64,000 bases of DNA, taken from the NCBI RefSeq assembly GCF_000018945.1, contig NC_011978.1:900729-964728 (forward strand), given 5' to 3'. The position numbers were made by a program, and so were the translations under genes. Positions 5,905 through 16,175 of the stretch are shown here, piece after piece. The notes beneath the pieces were generated by a model. It was given only the letters and a program-made list of their open reading frames with translations, did no database searches and was not told where the DNA came from. Position 1 is the first letter of the stretch. Each line of letters opens with the position of its first letter. This DNA comes from Thermotoga neapolitana DSM 4359. Its GTDB lineage: Bacteria > Thermotogota > Thermotogae > Thermotogales > Thermotogaceae.

Positions 5905-6645
5905 TCAGATCACGAGGCCCCCATCCACTCCTATCACCTGTCCTGTGATGTAACTCGACTCGTCGGATGCAAGAAACAGGTAAACCTGTGCCACCTCTTC
6001 GGGTTTTCCAAACCGGCCGAGAGGTATTCTGGAGAGCGCCGCTTCGCGTGCTTTATCCGGGAGTTTCTCTGTCATCGGTGTCTCTATGAAACCGGGGGCC
6101 ACGGCGTTCACCCTGATGTTTCTCCCGGCGAGTTCTTTTGCCCACGTTTTTGTCATTCCAATGACACCTGCCTTGGAAGCAGCGTAGTTGGTCTGACCGG
6201 GATTTCCATAGACACCCACCACGGAGGATACGTTTATGATCGATCCGCTTCTTTGTTTGATCATGTGCGGAACCACCGCCTGTGTTACGTTGAAAACTCC
6301 CTTCAGGTTCACGTTTATCACCGCATCCCAGTCCTCTTCCTTCATTCTCACAAGAAGAGCATCCCTTGTTATTCCTGCGTTGTTCACCAGAACGTCGATG
6401 CGGCCGTATTTTTGAACAATGCTTTCCACAACCTCTTTTACCTGCTCTCTGTTCGTCACATCGAGTACGTAGGGTTCCACCTTTCCTGGAAGATCCTTCG
6501 CTTCCTCCACAAGGGTGTTGAGACTGGTTTCGGACACGTCACATGCGGCCACGATCGCACCTTCCTGAACAAAAAGAAGAGAAGCAGCCTTTCCTATTCC
6601 ACTTGCGGCTCCTGTGATCATACACACTTTTCCCTCAAGCCTCAT
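5905..6645 (-). CDS. fabG: 3-oxoacyl-[acyl-carrier-protein] reductase FabG
   Basis: 246-residue short-chain dehydrogenase that reduces 3-oxoacyl-ACP with NADPH in fatty-acid elongation. Rossmann motif TGAASGIGKA, then NNAG at the end of beta-4, catalytic Ser in INVSSVVGVYGNPGQ, and YAASK with the Tyr/Lys pair are all present. The C-terminal SYITGQVIGVDGGLVI is typical of FabG. ATG 6645 is chosen because AAGGAGGTG precedes it at the right distance; the open frame extends 14 codons further without support. It stands alone on the minus strand, convergent with the amidohydrolase (6 bp between stops) and divergent from the ATPase operon. Confidence 0.95.
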   Translation of the reverse strand: MRLEGKVCMITGAASGIGKAASLLFVQEGAIVAACDVSETSLNTLVEEAKDLPGKVEPYVLDVTNREQVKEVVESIVQKYGRIDVLVNNAGITRDALLVRMKEEDWDAVINVNLKGVFNVTQAVVPHMIKQRSGSIINVSSVVGVYGNPGQTNYAASKAGVIGMTKTWAKELAGRNIRVNAVAPGFIETPMTEKLPDKAREAALSRIPLGRFGKPEEVAQVYLFLASDESSYITGQVIGVDGGLVI

Positions 6646-6673
6646 GGATACACCTCCTTCAGGTCTTTTTAAA

Positions 6674-6682
6674 ATTGTACCA
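6674..6682 (-). promoter_or_regulatory. extended -10 element for fabG
   Basis: On the minus strand TGGTACAAT sits 29 bp before the fabG start, an extended -10 (TGn-TACAAT) without a good -35 at 17 bp. It is the only credible promoter element in the 139-bp divergent gap on this strand. Confidence 0.4.
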
Positions 6683-6752
6683 TGCACATTGACTTAAAGG
6701 AGTGTTAACAACTGAAAGTCTCAATTGAAACACCGTAGGTCATGCAAAGGAG

Positions 6753-6758
6753 TATAAT
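6753..6758 (+). promoter_or_regulatory. TATAAT -10 box of the ATPase operon
   Basis: A consensus TATAAT lies 27 bp before the first gene of the ATPase operon, followed by the strong ribosome site AAGGAGGGTG at 6771-6780. No good -35 sits at 17 bp; a TTGAAA occurs at 6725 but with a 22-bp spacer. The promoter may be weak or activator-dependent. Confidence 0.45.
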
Positions 6759-6784
6759 CTATTCACATGTAAGGAGGGTGAAAG

Positions 6785-7852
6785 ATGCGATTGTTTCTCA
6801 TAGGCATCGCGTTCACGCTGATTGGTCTTTCGGTTTTGAAGATTCTAGACACTTACATGTTTGTCATCCCTGAAAGGGATCTCATATACAAAAACATCCG
6901 GCGCATAGAAAAAGAGAAACTAACAGACAATTTTACCTTCGTTGTGTTTGGTGATAACAAAAACTCCATCTCCACCTTCTCCAAATTGATAAGTGCGGTG
7001 AACGAAGACCCTGTTGTTTCCTTTGCAATCAACACGGGTGATATGGTTTTTGATGGTTCTGTGTTCAAATGGGGATTGTATTTGAAGCAACTCAAGAGAT
7101 TCAAAGTACCCGTGCTCCACGTTCCAGGAAACCATGATCTAGCGGACGATCCAGGAAATTATCTGAAAATCTTTGGACCCCTCTACTATTCCTTCCATGT
7201 GGGAAATTCCTACTTCATAGTGTTGAACAATGCGAACGAAAAATGTGTTGATTCATATCAATTGGCATGGCTGGAAGGGGAACTTGAAAAATCCAGATCT
7301 TACAAGTACAGGTTTGTCTTCATGCACGTTCCGATATACGACCCCAGGGTAAAAAAGCAACCGGGACACTCCATGAAAGACTTGAAAAATGCTCTCACTC
7401 TCTTGAACATTCTAAAGAAGTACGATATTACTATGGTCTTTGCCGGGCACATCCACGGTTACTTCAGAGGAGAATGGAACGGTGTGCCGTATATCATCAC
7501 AGGGGGAGCGGGTGCAGAGCTCTTCGGCACTAATCCTGAGCACTATTTTTATCACTTCATAAAGGTTCATGTCTCACCAAAGGGTGTAAACTATGAGGTA
7601 ATAAAACTTCCAACCCCCGATTTCAACATCGTTGACAGGATATTTCACACTTTCTGGATTTATACGTACTCCTTCGTGCTTCAAAACTATTGGATAGTAC
7701 TCTTTGGTACAGGCTTTTTCATGCTGAGTGCTGTCGTTATCTCTAGCAAAGAACAGGAGATAGCAAACTTTCTGATGAGAAGAAGAATTATCAGATTCGT
7801 GGTGAAGATCTGGAAATCTCTCGGAAAAATGAGCGGAAGGGGGAAGATATGA
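6785..7852 (+). CDS. membrane-anchored calcineurin-like metallophosphoesterase
   Basis: 355 residues. An N-terminal membrane segment (about residues 3-22) and a C-terminal one (about 300-319) bracket a metallophosphoesterase domain with the ordered motifs FVVFGDNKN, NTGDMVFDG, VPGNHDLADD, FMHVPIYD and AGHIHGYFRG, i.e. the metal ligands of the calcineurin fold. It would act on a phosphoester at a membrane face; the substrate is unknown. It is the first gene of the ATPase operon: its TGA is followed immediately by the GTG of the next gene, so cotranscription is very likely. It is not a known V-ATPase subunit, which makes the linkage notable. The two-anchor topology would place both termini on the same side of the membrane. 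Confidence 0.88.
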   Translation: MRLFLIGIAFTLIGLSVLKILDTYMFVIPERDLIYKNIRRIEKEKLTDNFTFVVFGDNKNSISTFSKLISAVNEDPVVSFAINTGDMVFDGSVFKWGLYLKQLKRFKVPVLHVPGNHDLADDPGNYLKIFGPLYYSFHVGNSYFIVLNNANEKCVDSYQLAWLEGELEKSRSYKYRFVFMHVPIYDPRVKKQPGHSMKDLKNALTLLNILKKYDITMVFAGHIHGYFRGEWNGVPYIITGGAGAELFGTNPEHYFYHFIKVHVSPKGVNYEVIKLPTPDFNIVDRIFHTFWIYTYSFVLQNYWIVLFGTGFFMLSAVVISSKEQEIANFLMRRRIIRFVVKIWKSLGKMSGRGKI

Positions 7853-8176
7853 GTGGAGCGCAGCGTGGAAGAGATCGTGAAAACTCTGGTGGAAAGAGAA
7901 AAGCGCTTCAAGGAACAGTTACGGAAACTGGAGGAAGAGATGGAAAGTGAATACAAAATAGAACTGGAGAAATTGAAAGTGCTCGAGGAGCAGAGGAAAA
8001 AGACGATAAACATGCGGTATGGAGAAGTCATTGAAAACGCAAAGATGGAGATAAAAAGGTTGGAAGCAAAGATAGAAAGGGAGCGTGTGGAGATGAAAGA
8101 ACGCATGGAGAAAATAAGAAATCAGATCGATGAACTCGTCACAGAAATATTGAACACACTGTTACCAGAGGAGTGA
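7853..8176 (+). CDS. V-type ATPase peripheral-stalk subunit G/H-like coiled coil
   Basis: 107 residues, almost entirely a charged coiled coil rich in Glu, Lys and Arg with heptad spacing (for example KRFKEQLRKLEEEMESEYK). This matches the small G/H (NtpF/AhaH) partner of subunit E in the peripheral stalk. There is no catalytic motif, so the call rests on composition, size and being the gene directly before subunit C. GTG 7853 abuts the preceding stop. Subunits of this type diverge too fast for a sure call by eye, but no other gene in the operon fills the role. Confidence 0.75.
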   Translation: MERSVEEIVKTLVEREKRFKEQLRKLEEEMESEYKIELEKLKVLEEQRKKTINMRYGEVIENAKMEIKRLEAKIERERVEMKERMEKIRNQIDELVTEILNTLLPEE

Positions 8177-8180
8177 TAGA

Positions 8181-9224
8181 GTGCGATTTGCCAGCCTTTC
8201 AGCCAAAGTGAAAGCAATGAAGTCGAAGATGTTAACAAGGGACGATTTTGAACAACTAATGAAAACTAAGAGCGTTGTTGAAATAGCCGATTATCTAAAA
8301 CAGAACACACATTACAGGGAGATCTTGAAGGAAGTAGATGTATCCAAGCTTCACCGGAGAGACCTGGAGATTTTACTCAGGGGATCCATTGTACAGGACC
8401 TTTACAAGGTGTACTTCTATCTTCCAAACGATGCGAAAAGAATCTTTCTGTTGTTCGAAAAGAAATTCGAGATCGAGAACATAAAATTCGCCATCCGTGT
8501 GATACACTCGGGCCATCCTGAAAATCTCAGTGAATCCAAATTATATCCAGTCTACCACAAAAGTATTGATGAAGCTCGTCTTCTTTCGGTGAAGAACATG
8601 GAAGAACTGTGGAACGTTTTAAAAGAAAGCGAATACTACGCCGGGTTAGAAAGCGCTTACAGAAATTACCAAAATTCTGGGAAAGTTCACCATTTGCTAA
8701 ATGCCCTGGATCTTTGGTATTTCCTCACAGTGAAAAGAAGACTGAGCAGTACTTCATTGTATGCACAAGGCTTTAAGCACCTCTTTTACACTCACATCGA
8801 CCTCACGAACATTCAGTGGGTATACAGAGCGCGATTGTTGTTCAAACTACAAACACCAGAAGTGTTGAACTTACTTACACCTTTCCAGGGTTACCTGAAA
8901 AAGCAATTTTTCTCAGAACTTTCGACCGTTTCTTCTACAAACGAATTTTTGAAAAAACTCATGCAAACACCGTATGGTAGGTACTTCGAAGACATGGAAG
9001 AATCAAAATTGCCTTTCACCATAGAAAGGATATGCGATCGTGTTCTTCTGGACAGGGCTGAAAGGCTCTCAAACGATGTTCAGAATGGATGCAATGTCGC
9101 AGTTGGATACGTTTACATCAGGGAATACGAGTACAAAGATCTAGTAACCATAATTGAAACGAAGAGATACGGTTTGAGCTCGGAAGAGGCTAAATATTAC
9201 CTTGTGATCTTTGGGGAGTGGTGA
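8181..9224 (+). CDS. ntpC: V-type ATP synthase subunit C (central-stalk funnel, V0 d)
   Basis: 347 residues, mostly helical without membrane segments, the size and helix-rich composition of the C/d subunit that sits on the K ring and links it to the D-F shaft. Features resembling the family are the opening with repeated short helices (RDDFEQLMKTKSVVEIADYL, a family-like pseudo-repeat) and the ending IREYEYKDLVTIIETKRYGLS, which matches the conserved C-terminus where the family reads 'E.KN.R.I..G...G'. GTG 8181. It precedes subunit I, unlike in the Enterococcus and Thermus operons where C comes after E. Overlaps the start of subunit I by a few bases. Confidence 0.88.
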   Translation: MRFASLSAKVKAMKSKMLTRDDFEQLMKTKSVVEIADYLKQNTHYREILKEVDVSKLHRRDLEILLRGSIVQDLYKVYFYLPNDAKRIFLLFEKKFEIENIKFAIRVIHSGHPENLSESKLYPVYHKSIDEARLLSVKNMEELWNVLKESEYYAGLESAYRNYQNSGKVHHLLNALDLWYFLTVKRRLSSTSLYAQGFKHLFYTHIDLTNIQWVYRARLLFKLQTPEVLNLLTPFQGYLKKQFFSELSTVSSTNEFLKKLMQTPYGRYFEDMEESKLPFTIERICDRVLLDRAERLSNDVQNGCNVAVGYVYIREYEYKDLVTIIETKRYGLSSEEAKYYLVIFGEW

Positions 9225-9226
9225 AG

Positions 9227-11080
9227 ATGCAAGAAAAACTCGTTGCATTCAGTGCTATCACCATTAAAGATACCGCTGAAATGCTTGTGAAAAAGTTTTT
9301 GGACACGGAAAACGTGGAAGTAATCCCTTTGGAGCAGGTGATTGAGGAAGAAATACTTGAGTATCTGAAATCGCCCGAGAGTGTCTCTTACAATGATATT
9401 TATGAAAAACTGATGAAACTGTACGAAATAGCAGAGGAAAAACCTTCACCCAATCCAAAGGCTGTAGATATTTCTAGGAAAGTTTCTCTAATGGATATAA
9501 AAAAGTTCATGGAAGAAACGTTTCCTGCCATAGAAACCTTGCGTGAAAGATTGGAGATATTGAGGCAGGAGAGGGATAGGAAACTTAAGGATCTGGAGAT
9601 AGTTCAGAAACTTCACTCAATTGATGTGAAACTGGAAGATATGAGAGAATCAGTCTTATTTAGATATCGATTCGGTACCATAGGAAACGACTATGTTCAG
9701 CGCTTAAAAGACAGTGTGAAGAATGAAGATGCCCTGATTCTTGAAATAGAAGTTGGTGAAGAGAACACTTGGCTCCTCATAGTACACAGATTAGATCTGA
9801 ATATGGAAGGCGTGTTGTCGACAGCCGGTTTTGTAGAGTACACACTCTCTGAAAACTATTCAGGAACACCTCAGGAAATCTGTTCGTACCTTGAGGATGA
9901 GTTGAAGGTTCTGGAGATGGAAATAGCGATACTGCAATCTTCTGTAAAAAAGGAATTCTTCAAAAACAGACGTTTCATAGAGAAATATTTCGATTACATG
10001 TACGTTTTGAAGAATGTACAGGAACTCTTCCAGAAAGCGGGAACTACCGAAAACTTTTTCGTAATATCGGGTTGGACAACAAGATCAACTTTGGAGGAAT
10101 TAGAAAAATTTGCCAGTTTTGATCTTGGTATCATTTTTCTTCGTTGTCAGCCGAAAGAAAAGCCGCCGACTCTGTTGAGAAACAAAGGGTTTTTCAAGCA
10201 TTTCGAGTACATAACACGGATGTTTGGACTTCCTTCCAGTGATGAAATAGATCCCACCCCTCTGACTGCCATAATGTTTTTAATGTTTTTCGGAATGATG
10301 TTCGGTGACATCGGTCATGGTTTGGCCCTAGCACTGTTCGGTTTTGGGTTGTACAGGAGATTCAAGAACGATCTTCTCTACATAATTGGATCGGCGGGGA
10401 TATCCTCCTCCGTATTCGGGATGTTTTACGGAAGCATATTCGGTTATGATGCTCTACCACCACTGTGGAAGCGTCCAATGGAAAACATAGATTACTTCCT
10501 CAGTTTTTCCATATACGTAGGAATCTTTGTAGTTACTCTTGCCATGGTTTTGAACATCATCAACAAATTGAAAAATCGGGAAAGATTCGAGATTTTCCTT
10601 GATTACAACGGAATACTGGGAATACTAATTTACTGGACAGCCGTAGTGTCAATCCTGATCTTCTTCAAAGAAGGAACCTTTCCAAAAGCAGGTTTTGTTT
10701 TGATAGGAGTCCTCGTTGGGATTCTGTACGTTCACAGTTTCCTCTCTACACAGGCGCCTTTATCAGAGAGATTGGTACAAGCATTCTTCGAAGTTTTCGA
10801 AGTTTTAATAAGTTATTTCAGCAACACACTATCTTTTGTGAGATTAGGCGCGTTCGCTCTGAATCACGCTGGATTGTTTCTGGCGTTTTACACCATGGCG
10901 CAGATGACAAAAAGTTCCATTGCAAAATTCACCGTGCTTCTCCTTGGAAATCTGATCATACTTGGCTTGGAGGGACTTGTGGTATTCATTCAGACGATGA
11001 GGCTAGAATTTTATGAATTCTTCACCAGATTTTTCAAGGACAGTGGAAAAGAGTTCAATCCAGAAAGATACAAACTCTGA
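9227..11080 (+). CDS. ntpI: V-type ATP synthase subunit I (V0 a)
   Basis: About 617 residues. The N-terminal ~320 residues are soluble and coiled-coil rich (peripheral-stalk docking). The C-terminal half is membrane-embedded, beginning with DPTPLTAIMFLMFFGMMFGD, the family hallmark at the first membrane helix. The essential ion-channel arginine is in SFVRLGAFALNHAG (Arg near residue 540). Together with the K ring this forms the ion path. ATG 9227 has a GGGGAGTGG ribosome site upstream; GTG 9218 and GTG 9221 are in-frame alternatives overlapping the subunit C stop. The gene ends in TGATG overlapping the open frame of the next gene. Confidence 0.94.
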   Translation: MQEKLVAFSAITIKDTAEMLVKKFLDTENVEVIPLEQVIEEEILEYLKSPESVSYNDIYEKLMKLYEIAEEKPSPNPKAVDISRKVSLMDIKKFMEETFPAIETLRERLEILRQERDRKLKDLEIVQKLHSIDVKLEDMRESVLFRYRFGTIGNDYVQRLKDSVKNEDALILEIEVGEENTWLLIVHRLDLNMEGVLSTAGFVEYTLSENYSGTPQEICSYLEDELKVLEMEIAILQSSVKKEFFKNRRFIEKYFDYMYVLKNVQELFQKAGTTENFFVISGWTTRSTLEELEKFASFDLGIIFLRCQPKEKPPTLLRNKGFFKHFEYITRMFGLPSSDEIDPTPLTAIMFLMFFGMMFGDIGHGLALALFGFGLYRRFKNDLLYIIGSAGISSSVFGMFYGSIFGYDALPPLWKRPMENIDYFLSFSIYVGIFVVTLAMVLNIINKLKNRERFEIFLDYNGILGILIYWTAVVSILIFFKEGTFPKAGFVLIGVLVGILYVHSFLSTQAPLSERLVQAFFEVFEVLISYFSNTLSFVRLGAFALNHAGLFLAFYTMAQMTKSSIAKFTVLLLGNLIILGLEGLVVFIQTMRLEFYEFFTRFFKDSGKEFNPERYKL

Positions 11081-11094
11081 TGGGAGGTGTGAAC

Positions 11095-11526
11095 ATGTTT
11101 CTTCTGGTACTGGCAACTCTTCTGGTAGTGGTGACGCTAGCGAGTGGTATCTACTTCTCCAAAAAAGCCATTAAAAAGAAAACAGCACTGGGTATCTTTT
11201 TCGGTAACATGGTAGCCTTTGCCCTCCTTGTTTCTCTTGTTGTAGTGGGGCTTTCTTCAAGTGCATATGCACAGAATACACCATCAACACAACCACCAGC
11301 TCAACAGACTTCCTCGAACGGTCTTGGCCTTCTTGCGGTAGCCCTTTCCACAGGTTTGGCTGCGGTTGGTGCTGGTGTTGCAGTAGGCATGACGGGAGCA
11401 GCCTCTATTGGCGCAATAAGTGAAAAGCCCGAGATGCTTGGAAGAACTCTCATCTACGTAGGATTGGGTGAAGGAATAGTAATATACGGTCTCATTATAA
11501 GCATTATTATTCTCGGGAGGTTATGA
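11095..11526 (+). CDS. ntpK: V-type ATP synthase subunit K (rotor ring)
   Basis: 143 residues, the ion-carrying ring subunit. Start ATG 11095 is preferred over ATG 11080 because GGGAGG lies 7 nt upstream. Four hydrophobic segments are seen: residues 1-21, 31-59, 77-107 and 117-142. The last two form the canonical ring hairpin joined by the polar loop SEKPEMLG, with the ion-binding glutamate at E126 (GLGEGIVIYG). Segment two ends in SSSAYAQ, which looks like a signal-peptidase site followed by a Pro/Gln/Ser/Thr linker (residues 60-75). So the mature ring unit may be only the second hairpin. The usual helix-1 glutamine and the Ser/Thr after the glutamate, typical of Na+ rings, are absent. Confidence 0.93.
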   Translation: MFLLVLATLLVVVTLASGIYFSKKAIKKKTALGIFFGNMVAFALLVSLVVVGLSSSAYAQNTPSTQPPAQQTSSNGLGLLAVALSTGLAAVGAGVAVGMTGAASIGAISEKPEMLGRTLIYVGLGEGIVIYGLIISIIILGRL

Positions 11527-11843
11527 AGGTGAGGTTCTATTTGATCAGTGACAACATAGATACTGCTATCGGCCTTCGGTTGGCTGGTGTCATGGGAACG
11601 GTTGTTCATGGCAGAGAGGAAACTCTTGAGGCCTTCAACGAAGCACTCCAAGATGAAACCGTGGGGATACTCCTTATTACTGAACTGGCGGCAGGGGAAA
11701 TCCAAGAAGAAATAAATTCTCATAAGATCTCCGGAAAACTACCTTTGGTGTTCGTTATTCCAGACAGACATGGATGGCGTGGTGATAAAAACTTCATCAC
11801 AAGATACGTGGAAGAGGTGGTGGGGGTGAAAATGAATGAGTGA
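11523..11843 (+). CDS. ntpG: V-type ATP synthase subunit F (central shaft)
   Basis: 106 residues with the Rossmann-like layout of subunit F: an opening FYLISDNIDTAIGLRLAGV (family: 'GD.dt..GfrLaGv'), a middle strand VGILLITELAAGEI and a late LPLVFVIPDRHG (family: 'P.i..IPs..g'). It binds subunit D in the rotor shaft. The ATG overlaps the K stop (ATGA). The 3' end overlaps subunit E by 8 bp. Confidence 0.92.
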   Translation: MKVRFYLISDNIDTAIGLRLAGVMGTVVHGREETLEAFNEALQDETVGILLITELAAGEIQEEINSHKISGKLPLVFVIPDRHGWRGDKNFITRYVEEVVGVKMNE

Positions 11844-12420
11844 GAACGATATTGAGGCGAAACTTGAAACCTTTTTTGCCGTGTTCAGAAAACGTCTAGA
11901 AGAGAAAAAAGAAGAACTGAGGAAAAAATACGAACAACTGCTGAACGCTGAAAAAGAACGCATAGAAAAGGAAATCGTGGAGTTCGAGACCTCAACAATG
12001 AAGAAAGCAGAGATGGAAGCAAAACGGATGATCGACAAAGAAATCTCCAAGCTTACTGCCGAGTTGAGAAGGGAAAAGATCATCTACAAAAACAAATTGA
12101 TCACGGAGATTCTCTCCCGATTGAAAGAAAAACTCATGAACTTACCTCCAGAGAGAAAAAAGCTACTCTACAAAAAGTTGTACGAGGAAGCCAGAAGGGT
12201 GGCACCGGATGAAAATTTTACTGTTTACTGTAATCCAAACGATCTTGGTATCGTTTCCGAAATTGTCGGAGGCGAGAAAATTGTTTCGGATCCGAATGTC
12301 AGGGAAGGAATTCTACTGAAAAAAGACAGAATGCTGGTTAGAAGTACCATCGACACATTTCTGGAGGATCGAAAAGAAGCCATATACGACATCATAGTGA
12401 AAAAGGTAGGTGAAATATGA
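11836..12420 (+). CDS. ntpE: V-type ATP synthase subunit E (peripheral stalk)
   Basis: 194 residues. The N-terminal ~110 residues are a long charged coiled coil, and the C-terminal part (ENFTVYCNPNDLGIVSEIVG, then GGEKIVSDPNVREGILLKKD, then STIDTFLEDRKEAI) is the mixed alpha/beta head that caps the A3B3 headpiece. The 'VREGILL...' and 'NTFDTRLE..' type elements fit the family. ATG 11836 overlaps subunit F and the stop overlaps the ATG of subunit A (ATGA). Partner of the coiled-coil protein at 7853-8176. Confidence 0.92.
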   Translation: MSENDIEAKLETFFAVFRKRLEEKKEELRKKYEQLLNAEKERIEKEIVEFETSTMKKAEMEAKRMIDKEISKLTAELRREKIIYKNKLITEILSRLKEKLMNLPPERKKLLYKKLYEEARRVAPDENFTVYCNPNDLGIVSEIVGGEKIVSDPNVREGILLKKDRMLVRSTIDTFLEDRKEAIYDIIVKKVGEI

Positions 12421-14180
12421 TGCGCATTTTGGAAATAAACGGCCCTGTCGTCAAAGTGGACAATACAGGAGACCTCTCCATGCACGAAATGGTGTACGTT
12501 GGAAAGTTAGGATTGATCGGAGAGATCATAGCACTTAGAGGGAAGATCGCCATTGTGCAAGTTTACGAAGAAACATCCATGCTAGAACCTGGTGAGCCTG
12601 TTGAAAGAACTGGAAAAATGTTGTCGGTTGTCCTGGGGCCAGGGCTTCTCGGGAACATTTACGACGGAATTCAAAGACCTTTGAGAACTCTTCTCGAAAA
12701 GGCAGGCCCGTTCATGAAAAGAGGTGTGAGAGCCTTCGGACTGGACACAGACAAATTCTGGTCAGTAAGTGTTCTAAAAAGAGAAGGAGAAAGAGTAAGG
12801 GGAGGAGACGTGATAGCGGAAGTCCAGGAAACAAACAGTATCAGGCACAGAATAATGGTGCCACCTCACATAAAAGAAGGTACTCTTGTGAACGTAAGGC
12901 AGAGTGGTGATTATAGAGTAACAGATACAATAGCGGTAGTGAAGACGGAAGACGGAATGGAAGAAATAAAACTTTATCAAGAGTGGCCCGTTCGAGTTCC
13001 AAGACCTGTGAAAAGATTTTTAGAACCCACCGTTCCACTGATTACAGGACAGAGAGTCATAGACATATTCTTCCCAATCAGTAAAGGTGGAACCGCTGCC
13101 ATACCTGGTGGTTTCGGTACGGGAAAGACCATCACGCAGCACCAACTGGCAAAATGGGCCGATACAGATGTGGTTGTGTATATCGGATGCGGAGAACGAG
13201 GTAACGAGATGACGGAGGTTTTGGAAGAGTTTCCTCAACTCCAGGACCCACGGACAGGGAAACCTTTAATGGATAGAACTATTCTGATCGCCAACACATC
13301 GAACATGCCAGTCTCTGCAAGAGAAGCATCAATATACACCGGAATCACCATTGCTGAGTACTTCAGGGATATGGGCTACAACGTTGCCTTAATGGCAGAT
13401 TCTACCTCCAGATGGGCAGAGGCATTGAGGGAACTCTCTGGTAGACTGGAAGAAATGCCCGTTGAAGAGGGGTATCCCTCGTACCTCGCTACCAGAATCG
13501 CTCAGTTCTATGAGAGAGCAGGGTTGTGTGAAAATCTCAATGGCACTGTAGGTTCTGTAACCATAATAGGTGCTGTCTCCCCTCCGGGTGGTGACTTTTC
13601 GGAACCTGTCACACAGCACACAAAGAGGTTCGTAAGGTGTTTCTGGGCTTTGGACAGGAATCTAGCCTACTCGAGGCATTATCCCTCTATAAATTGGATC
13701 ACAAGTTATAGTGAATACGTTGAAACCCTGGAAGATTGGTTCAAAGATAACGTTGATCCTGAGTGGCCCAGGTATCGCGAGGATGCTCTAAGAATCCTGA
13801 TAGAGGACGACAGGCTTCAGCAAATTATCAAGATTATGGGTGAAGATGTTCTTCCCGATGACCAGAAATTAACGGTGCTTGTAGCACGCATAATAAAAAC
13901 AGGAATCCTCCAACAAAACGCCTTTAGTAAGGTAGATTCATTCTGCCCTCTTGAAAAACAATTCAAAATCTTGAAGTTGATAGTTGATACATATTATAAC
14001 GCTCGAAAAATGCTCGAAAAGGCAATACCTGTTGGAAAGATCCTTCCTCCGGAGATCGTTTCGAAGCTTTCTACTTTGAAAGAAAGTGATCACTTTGATG
14101 AAGAACTGGCGGAGATAGAAAAAACTCTCACAGATCACTTTGAAGAATTAGAAAAACTCTATCCCAACAAGGCGAGGTGA
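12417..14180 (+). CDS. ntpA: V-type ATP synthase catalytic subunit A
   Basis: 587-residue catalytic subunit that hydrolyses or makes ATP in the A3B3 head. The P-loop is GGFGTGKT at about residues 231-238 (Lys237). The A-type-specific non-homologous insertion lies between the N-terminal barrel ([12 protein letters not shown]) and the P-loop, consistent with the length. Other hallmarks are [19 protein letters not shown] with the catalytic Glu, [36 protein letters not shown] and [13 protein letters not shown]. Length matches the family (~580-590). ATGA overlap with subunit E; 4 nt before subunit B. Confidence 0.97.
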
Positions 14181-14184
14181 CACT

Positions 14185-15567
14185 GTGGCGGTAAAAGAAT
14201 ACACAGGTCTATCGGAAATTAGAGGACCCATCGTTGTGGTGGAAAATGTAAGTGGTGTTCGGTACGATGAGGTAGTTGAACTGATCCTGGAAAACGGGGA
14301 AAAGAGGACAGGAAGGGTGATCATAGCAGGGGAAAATGTTGCAATAATACAGGTGTTCGAAGGCACGGAGGAAATGGATATCGAGGGTACACGTGTTAGA
14401 TTCCTCGGAAAACCCCTAGAGGTAAGTCTTTCCCCAGATTTACTTGGAAGAACACTCGATGGTCTGGGAAAGCCAAGAGACAACCTTGGCGAGATTGTTC
14501 CTGAGAAAACCGTGGATATCAATGGATCTCCAATAAATCCTTCTGCCAGAGAGTACCCGCGAAACTTCATTCAGACAGGTATTTCCAGCATAGATGTGTT
14601 GATGACGCTCATAAGAGGTCAGAAACTCCCCATATTTGCTGGAAACGGTCTACCATACAACAGACTCGCTGTTCAAATAGCACGTCAGGCGAAAGTTACC
14701 ACTGAAGAGGAGTTTGCCGTGGTTTTTGCAGCAATAGGTCTGAGAAAAGATGATGCAAATTTTATTGTGAGAAGTCTGGAGGAAAGCGGAGCTATAAAAA
14801 ACATGGTTGTAGTGCTGAATTTGGCAAGCGATTCCGTGGCTGAAAGGATAGCCACCCCAAGGGTGGCTTTAACAATTGCCGAGTACCTCGCCTTCGATTT
14901 GGGGATGCATGTACTGGTTATTCTCAACGATATGACAAATTACTGCGAAGCCTTGAGAGAACTTTCGAATTACAGAGGGGAAGTCCCTGGAAGAAAGGGA
15001 TACCCTGGTTATCTCTATTCCGATCTTGCGTCGATATACGAGAGGGCCGGAATAATAAAGGGAAGAAGCGGGTCTATTACTCAGATACCAATTCTTACCA
15101 TGCCAAACGACGACATCACACATCCAATACCGGATTTGACAGGATACATAACAGAAGGGCAAATTGTGATGTCCAGATCCCTGTTTGGAAAGGGTATATA
15201 CCCTCCAATAGACATCCTTTCATCGCTATCACGTCTCATGAAAGACGGCATAGGTGAAGGATACACTAGAGAAGATCATCCAGATGTGGCTTCACAGCTT
15301 TTCAGTGCCTACTCTAGGGTGATGGAAGTGCGTTCTATCGCTTCCATAGTGGGTGAGGAAGACCTACCGGAAATTGATAAGCTCTATTTGAAGTTCGGCG
15401 AAGAATTCGAGCACCTTTTCATAAATCAAAGCTTCGACGAAGAGAGATCAATCGAACAGTCCTTGGATCTTGCCTGGAAAATTCTCTCTATTCTCCCCGA
15501 AACAGAGTTGACCAGGATCAATAGAGAGTATATCAAGAAATACTATAAAGCGAGTGATGAAACATGA
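14185..15567 (+). CDS. ntpB: V-type ATP synthase regulatory subunit B
   Basis: 460 residues, the non-catalytic partner of subunit A. It has the barrel start [17 protein letters not shown] and, in place of a P-loop, the degenerate [20 protein letters not shown] typical of B subunits. Further hallmarks are [34 protein letters not shown] and [20 protein letters not shown]. Start GTG 14185. The stop overlaps the ATG of subunit D. Confidence 0.97.
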
Positions 15568-16175
15568 GTGTAGCCCCAACACGTGGGAACCTCATAGCTT
15601 TGAAGCAGCAACTGAGACTTGCAATACAGGGGTACGATCTTCTGGAAAGAAAGCGAACTGTTATAATGAGAGAACTCGTAGGATTGATAGAGGAAGCAAA
15701 AAAACTTCAGGAGGAATTATTGAGTACCTTTGAAGAGGCGTACAGATCCCTCCAGAAAGCCAATCTGGATCTGGGGATAGAGAGCGTGGAAGAATACGCC
15801 AGTGGAATACCTGAATTCAAAGCGATGAAGATCATATTCAGTAGCGTGATGGGGGTTGAGGTACCGGAGATTCAAATTGAACGGTTTGAAACGGAGATCC
15901 CTTATGAGATATACAGTACGAACGCCGCTCTCGATCAGGCCTACTTGGTCTTTAGAAAAGCACTGGAATTGGTTGCAAGGGTCGCCGTAATTGAAAATAA
16001 AGTGTATCGGCTGGCCCACGAGGCAAAGAAAACAAAAAAGAGGGTGAACGCCCTGGAAAATTTAATAATACCTCACCTCAAAGAAACGATAAAATATATC
16101 CAGGACACACTCGAAGAACTGGAACGAGAAGAATTGTTCAGGCTTAAGCGTCTGAAAGAGAAAGTAGCGCGCTGA
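15564..16175 (+). CDS. ntpD: V-type ATP synthase subunit D (rotor shaft)
   Basis: 203 residues, helical at both ends. N-terminal [20 protein letters not shown] and the near-C-terminal [19 protein letters not shown] are the two conserved helices that wrap as the coiled-coil shaft inside A3B3 (family: 'PTr..l..lk..L..A..G..LLK.Kr' and 'RvNALE.v.iP'). ATGA overlap with subunit B. Last ATPase gene; the next gene starts 13 nt later with no terminator between. Confidence 0.95.

Follow-up and report, generated by a model that had tools for sequence, protein, structure and literature searches.

Two questions are raised by the rotor subunit K of the V/A-type ATPase of Thermotoga neapolitana DSM 4359, whose gene product carries an additional hydrophobic hairpin in front of the ring hairpin: does that additional hairpin belong to the finished ring, and does the ring carry H+ or Na+? 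The answer that we consider likely is that K is made as a precursor, that its leader is cleaved after Ala59, and that the resulting single-hairpin ring carries H+, beside a Na+-linked F-type enzyme. The window, that is, the whole stretch of 64,000 nucleotides that was analysed, corresponds to positions 900,729–964,728 of a single-contig genome of 1,884,562 bases. The operon and the K gene are located in the window as follows.

7853..16175, + strand: V/A-type ATPase operon, a 107-aa protein followed by C, I, K, F, E, A, B and D
Gene starts of the operon, first part: 7853 (107-aa protein), 8181 (C), 9218 (I), 11095 (K), 11523 (F)
Gene starts of the operon, remainder: 11836 (E), 12417 (A), 14185 (B), 15564 (D)
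11083..11089, + strand: Shine-Dalgarno-like GGAGGTG of K, right behind the stop of the I gene (sequence)
11095..11526, + strand: gene of the K (c-type) rotor subunit of the V/A-type ATPase, a 143-aa precursor plus stop (Pfam)

The 143-codon frame reported by the first-pass annotation is open, contains both GAGVAVGMTG and GLGEGIVIYG, and has its glutamate at residue 126. An alternative in-frame ATG at 11080 would give 148 residues; the ATG at 11095 is preferred because GGAGGTG lies 5 nt upstream of it. The product is identified as subunit K by its hairpin and by its context. Pfam ATP-synt_C covers residues 80–139 with 56.2 bits against a cut-off of 24, the hairpin has one helix-2 glutamate (Glu126), and the gene is flanked by those of I and F within a V/A operon. 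C, I, K, B, D, F and E each score above the Pfam cut-off, and A was recognized with NCBIfam (868 against 470 bits). K itself falls below the cut-off of the NCBIfam subunit K models (best NF004888, 74.5 against 101), and no model of that library covers its sub-family. For the first protein of the operon (107 aa, 7853–8176), neither Pfam nor NCBIfam gave a match at E 0.001; judged by its position, it is probably the small peripheral-stalk subunit.

The precursor can be divided into four parts.

11095..11271, + strand: leader, residues 1–59, two hydrophobic helices joined by a positive loop (AF2 helices 2–24 and 28–54)
11263..11271, + strand: signal-peptidase-I-like Ala-Tyr-Ala, residues 57–59, predicted cut after residue 59
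11272..11319, + strand: Gln/Thr/Pro/Ser-rich linker, residues 60–75, predicted to be flexible
11320..11523, + strand: ring hairpin, residues 76–143 (AF2 helices 76–110 and 112–142; Foldseek)

Conservation of these parts was followed in 109 Glu-bearing K homologues (107 of them different). A whole-protein search of 103 Thermotogota genomes supplied 28, which are free of pattern bias, and the other 81 are named records obtained with two peptide search patterns, one containing Glu-Gly. L012 (start not found) and L001, L032 and L050 (other ring types) were excluded; the N-termini of L075 and L131, and probably those of L106 and L112, are shortened by the choice of start, and L115 was trimmed. Two hydrophobic segments precede the ring hairpin in 96 homologues, one in 11 and none in 2, where the two cases with none reflect start choice and, among those with one, L106 and L112 probably do likewise. 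A one-helix start resembling a signal peptide is found in some homologues (e.g. L025, L092, L104, L113 and L124).

The earlier description of residues 1–59 as two hydrophobic segments ending in SSSAYAQ holds, with SSSAYA before and Q behind the 59/60 junction. In K, a hydrophobic helix is followed by small-x-Ala (AYA) at a conserved place, as in substrates of signal peptidase I. Across the alignment of the 96 two-segment homologues, Ala precedes the expected cut (position −1) in 93 and Ser in the other 3. Position −3 is occupied by a small or aliphatic residue (Ala, Val, Ser, Ile, Thr, Leu or Gly) in 81; a strict Ala-x-Ala follows the second segment in 54, and a permissive motif in 95. Ala59 is the sole invariant leader residue in a 21-sequence alignment (A2). 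The loop between the leader segments has a net charge of at least +1 in 95/96, and the net charge ahead of helix 1 is 0 in 76/96. An AF2 model from 21 sequences (mean pLDDT 78.4, pTM 0.47) predicted helices at 2–24, 28–54, 76–110 and 112–142, with block pLDDT values of 67, 53 and 66 for residues 51–80, which places the cut site in a region of low confidence between two confident hairpins. Leader and ring hairpin show no profile similarity (hhalign probability 0.7%); a decayed ring hairpin was rejected as the origin of the leader on this value, and the two homologous ring hairpins of an Enterococcus-type four-helix K are likewise not seen.

The extra N-terminal hairpin claimed by the first-pass annotation is present in the gene product and is best read as a cleaved leader, one that is conserved far beyond Thermotoga. 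The N-terminus of the leader would lie outside, the positive loop inside, and the second helix would end outside. After insertion of the leader into the membrane, signal peptidase I would cut behind Ala59, and the released K, for which we infer about 84 residues, a tail at the N-terminus that points outward and a single helical hairpin, would assemble into the ring. Among the few titles listed in literature searches, none dealt with signal peptides of K or c subunits.

The K subunit of Thermus thermophilus (6qum, 5gar) is the nearest solved prokaryotic V/A relative by sequence and also the best fold match; Foldseek aligned the ring part with 6qum over 68–70 columns at an E-value of 0.13, and no match reached 0.001. 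It is also a single ring hairpin made with an N-terminal leader, and the two lengths of its chains in the PDB, 99–102 and 73–74 residues, are in line with leader removal there. The Thermus leader consists of one helix and is much shorter, about 25 residues by chain lengths, whereas that of T. neapolitana has two helices. Hairpin K subunits of Clostridia, Atribacterota, Spirochaetota, Synergistota and other bacteria have the same Val/Glu-Gly/Tyr site as K, and the same two-helix leader in 69 of the 81 named records, with differences in linker details.

Whether such a leader does more than direct K to the membrane is a close call. There is nearly an even chance that it is a mere targeting signal without a function of its own, the extra helix being incidental; its lower conservation (mean top-residue frequency 0.41, against 0.82 in the ring part) and the existence of members with a one-helix start agree with this. 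Individual leader positions argue against it. Gly18 is kept in 94, Thr14 in 86 and Asn38 in 76 of the 96 homologues, and Phe42 is among the conserved positions as well; position 32 is Lys in 80/96 (Leu in T. neapolitana) and position 54 is Pro in 81/96 (Ser in T. neapolitana). Even among 36 leaders with pairwise identities below 45%, 35 have Gly18 and 31 have Thr14. The dN/dS of the leader was 0.01–0.22 in 18 usable of 20 close comparisons (one of the others was saturated and one had no leader replacement), values that also speak against an incidental helix and indicate that the leader is under purifying selection. For the mature part, dN/dS was 0.02–0.18 in 20 comparisons, and it was below that of the leader in 14/18. 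A further point against mere targeting is the AF2 confidence, which in the leader helices (84–89) equals or exceeds that in the ring helices (76–85).

From Gly18, Thr14 and Asn38 we infer a conservation beyond what plain targeting would need. Thr14 sits on one helix and Asn38 on the other, each at a distance of five or six residues from the loop, and the two could therefore touch. A more speculative proposal, which we hold to be rather unlikely as it stands, is that the leader is a folded two-helix pro-domain with a contact between Thr14/Gly18 and Asn38, which would serve each protomer as a disposable, built-in assembly factor in the manner of AtpI and then be cut off. AtpI/UncI and Vma21 are small membrane proteins that act on ring assembly. 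For UncI, such a role is mentioned in PMC9806626. The likeness to these proteins is drawn from the description of their role and not from sequence, and five leaders compared with Pfam gave no match above the cut-off. The conserved leader residues offer a testable case for a built-in aid to ring assembly.

The second question, the ion, is decided at the following positions of the ring hairpin.

11383..11385, + strand: Val97, at the Gln position of Na+ rings
11470..11472, + strand: Glu126, the ion-carrying carboxylate, followed by Gly127 and Ile128, with Tyr131 further on

In comparison with solved rings, Val97 aligns with the Gln of Ilyobacter and the Glu of Fusobacterium, and Gly127 and Ile128 align with the Ser and Thr positions. 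GxGQG or GxGEG is the helix-1 motif of the Na+ rings of Ilyobacter (1yce) and Fusobacterium (3zk1), whose helix 2 contains AESTGIYS; Enterococcus NtpK (2bl2) has LPGTQG, AQGK and VETYA. At the K site (GAGVAVG and GLGEGIVIYG), the ligands are replaced by Val97, Gly127 and Ile128, while Glu126 and Tyr131 are kept. None of the three ligand positions of K therefore carries a polar side chain, in agreement with the earlier claim that Na+-type ligands are absent, and K lacks the Na+-type combination of Gln or Glu in helix 1, Ser or Thr after the helix-2 Glu, and a polar residue next. Val97, Gly127 and Tyr131 are present in all 28 Thermotogota homologues from the whole-protein search. Val97 and Tyr131 recur in the further 81/81 named homologues, giving 109/109 altogether; Gly127 is likewise found in 109/109, although for the named set this is partly built into the search and is no independent result, because the pattern containing Glu-Gly is present in 80/81.

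The V/A-ATPase of Thermus is an H+ enzyme. Its K differs from that of T. neapolitana at the ligand positions, with Gln and Thr retained and Leu next, and has Phe in place of Tyr131. The ring in 2wie, proton-dependent by its title, also retains Gln. Because of these two cases, sequence-based ion rules are imperfect, and the rule applied in the first-pass annotation, that missing Na+ ligands point to H+, is too weak when used alone. According to PMC2359735, rings predicted to use H+ carry an aliphatic residue in place of the Thr67 of Na+ rings, and Ile128 fits this rule. The carboxylate is kept and at least one Na+ ligand is missing, which is the sequence pattern of H+-type rings in the accessible parts of PMC2359735 and PMC11738941. 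Glu126 would then carry H+ rather than Na+, close to Tyr131 and in a pocket formed by Val97, Gly127 and Ile128. The uniform site in the 28 Thermotogota homologues supports this coupling, and H+ is a reasonable best reading that had already been published as a prediction for T. neapolitana. A ring that uses Na+ held by Glu126, Tyr131 and backbone carbonyls is improbable. The tyrosine, kept in every homologue, is also a feature of Na+ rings, and the respiratory chain of T. maritima runs on Na+ according to a passage of PMC7414866, but the remaining side-chain ligands are Val, Gly and Ile in K, and a Na+-type F ring is already present in the genome.

Enterococcus hirae NtpK and the four-helix K of E. 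callanderi are likewise V/A rotor subunits with one carboxylate per gene product, but they lack a leader and contain two true ring hairpins, with the Na+ ligand motifs Thr-Gln, Gln and Glu-Thr. Retention of the N-terminal hairpin in T. neapolitana, which would give a mature four-helix, one-carboxylate K like that of Enterococcus with half as many ion sites per helix, agrees with the count of four predicted helices and one site Glu and with a strict Ala-x-Ala in only 54/96 homologues, but is very unlikely in view of the −1 Ala at the end of helix 2 in 93/96, the missing profile similarity between leader and ring hairpin, the higher dN/dS of the leader in 14/18 usable pairs, its replacement by a one-helix start in some homologues, the separate coexistence of a genuine four-helix K in the same genomes (e.g. 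E. callanderi), and the need to accommodate a ring's worth of extra hairpins outside or inside the rotor. A widespread sub-family of bacterial K whose precursor bears a conserved two-helix leader, probably removed by cleavage, seems to have been less noticed than the ion question. Automatic helix counts on such leader-bearing genes would yield a four-helix subunit with halved ions per helix, and the halved prediction distorts estimates of ATP yield.

A Thermotogota family of the same order (L032, L050 and L234; G059 and G058) carries a four-helix Enterococcus-type K with Na+ ligand motifs, so that both V/A types occur in one order. The Na+-dependent A1AO of E. limosum/callanderi was considered as a hairpin K that would contradict H+ coupling, and was rejected. 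E. callanderi FD has a second K with four helices and the full Na+ motif. This separate gene matches the 'V-type c subunit' with Na+ motif described for the A1AO in available parts of PMC9503626 and PMC7793690, and the enzyme is therefore no contradiction.

H+ at Glu126 of K would mean that the cell has a Na+-coupled F-type and an H+-coupled V/A-type enzyme. Only one other ATP-synt_C gene is present in the genome, an F-type c with GPGIGEG and VAETTGIYS, which is the two-carboxylate pattern of Fusobacterium. Such F-type Na+ rings (3zk1 and the c subunit of this genome) have the same hairpin fold as K but, unlike K, a helix-1 Glu and a helix-2 Glu-Ser/Thr. ATP hydrolysis by the F1FO of T. maritima is stated to be strictly Na+ dependent, with a Km of 1.2 mM (a passage of PMC7414866), and T. 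maritima is included in a c-subunit alignment figure (legend in PMC3692424). The proposed Na+ linkage of the Thermotoga F-type enzyme is thus backed by the motif in this genome and by the Na+ coupling of the T. maritima enzyme (PMC7414866). For T. neapolitana, the accessible text of PMC9570489 gives the F-ATPase as predicted Na+ and the V-ATPase as 'supposed to be H+-dependent', and reports up-regulation of the V-ATPase and down-regulation of the F-ATPase under CO2. Of the 1,388 genera with several rotary ATPases in ProAD, 1,137 are given as combining H+ and Na+ enzymes (PMC11738941). The suggested coexistence of two rotary enzymes with different ions is supported and, because of these statements in PMC9570489 and ProAD, the ion part of the finding is already known.

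The pairing was also followed in the genomes of 56 of 80 named K loci. In 48 of them, K is accompanied by a second ring that bears a Na+ signature; in the other eight, G107 has an N-type-like ring and seven, all MAGs, show K only. At least 3 of these 48 genomes carry, in addition, an F-type ring that lacks the Na+ pattern. The Clostridia, the class of E. callanderi, were sampled evenly with 148 genomes, 53 with K and 95 without. Among the matches listed, a Na+-type ring occurs in 48/53 K genomes against at least 62/95 without K (Fisher p=0.0007). When the comparison is restricted to genomes that have a further ring, the figures are 48/49 and at least 62/80 (p=0.0015). Both p values treat genomes as independent and ignore kinship, and Na+ rings may be undercounted in genomes without K, with four-helix rings identified by the place of the hit and the length of the frame. 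In some genomes K is not the sole H+ candidate, because 9/53 of the Clostridia K genomes contain an F-type a-subunit gene but no c gene with the Na+ pattern. In the F-type operons L157 (G123), L161 (G153) and L171 (G110), fused c proteins with 2, 3 or 4 hairpins were observed, and some of these hairpins have Gln instead of Glu, as in Acetobacterium c1. Two Glu-bearing hairpin K genes per genome were seen in tandem in a Poribacteria MAG and on separate contigs in an Oscillospiraceae MAG (L107 and L225/L226, G155).

A different duplication of K is found in one Thermotogota family (f8, genomes G008–G017), where the normal K of five genomes is immediately preceded by one or two additional K genes in tandem. 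The operon order is C-I-K_N1-(K_N2)-K-F-A-B-D; in the stretch before A, the expected place of E, no gene was detected.

L033 (G017), 6946–7895: two extra K copies
L034 (G015), 6847–7800: two extra K copies
L037 (G014), 6910–7845: two extra K copies
L035 (G013), 6902–7402: one extra K copy
L036 (G012), 6931–7431: one extra K copy

All eight intact extra copies have Asn for Glu (GLANGVATYG) and Thr at the Gln position. Seven of them form one clade (100/100, with a long-branch warning), and the second copy of G014 stands outside the tree. Leader and cleavage-like site are kept in the seven tabulated copies, and dN/dS values of 0.02–0.09 for the mature part (five comparisons) indicate that the Asn copies are under purifying selection. 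In G016, the extra K is broken by stops and frame changes (L045, about 6500–7150) and the normal K is intact; in G008 and G010, I adjoins a single K, and G009 and G011 gave one match each. Because the Asn copies are neighbours of a normal K, the simplest interpretation is a mixed ring in which the number of carboxylates is reduced. We lean towards the view that the Asn copies enter the ring, and the arrangement suggests hetero-oligomeric rings with fewer ion sites in this family. The copies may thus offer a natural system in which to ask whether the ion-to-ATP ratio is changed by mixing carboxylate-free and normal subunits. When the Asn-type pattern was applied to 398 genomes of the phylum of E. 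callanderi, 8 genomes matched, none with a K; six of the matches lie in one protease-like frame, presumably LonB, and two are unrelated. Carboxylate-free K subunits have been seen before in general, because ProAD mentions 41 A-ATPases with such subunits (PMC11738941); in the available sections of that paper, no tandem arrangement with an intact K was found. Among the titles listed in literature searches, none concerned rings with carboxylate-free paralogues.

Some observations concern the surroundings and distribution of the operon. Upstream, it adjoins the gene of a calcineurin-like phosphoesterase (6785–7852), whose C-terminal part looks membrane-spanning by eye; the same neighbour is present in G093. 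In that genome, the C subunit gene (L040, 7986–9054) is split across two frames, by a sequencing error or a frameshift. In the survey of the Thermotogota phylum, K was present in only two (G000 and G093) of seven genomes of its own genus. The A and B subunits of the operon are closer to those of family f10 (A 68–72%, B 73%) than to those of other genera of their own family (A 64–65%, B 69–71%). The V/A operon may have been gained by transfer or repeatedly lost.
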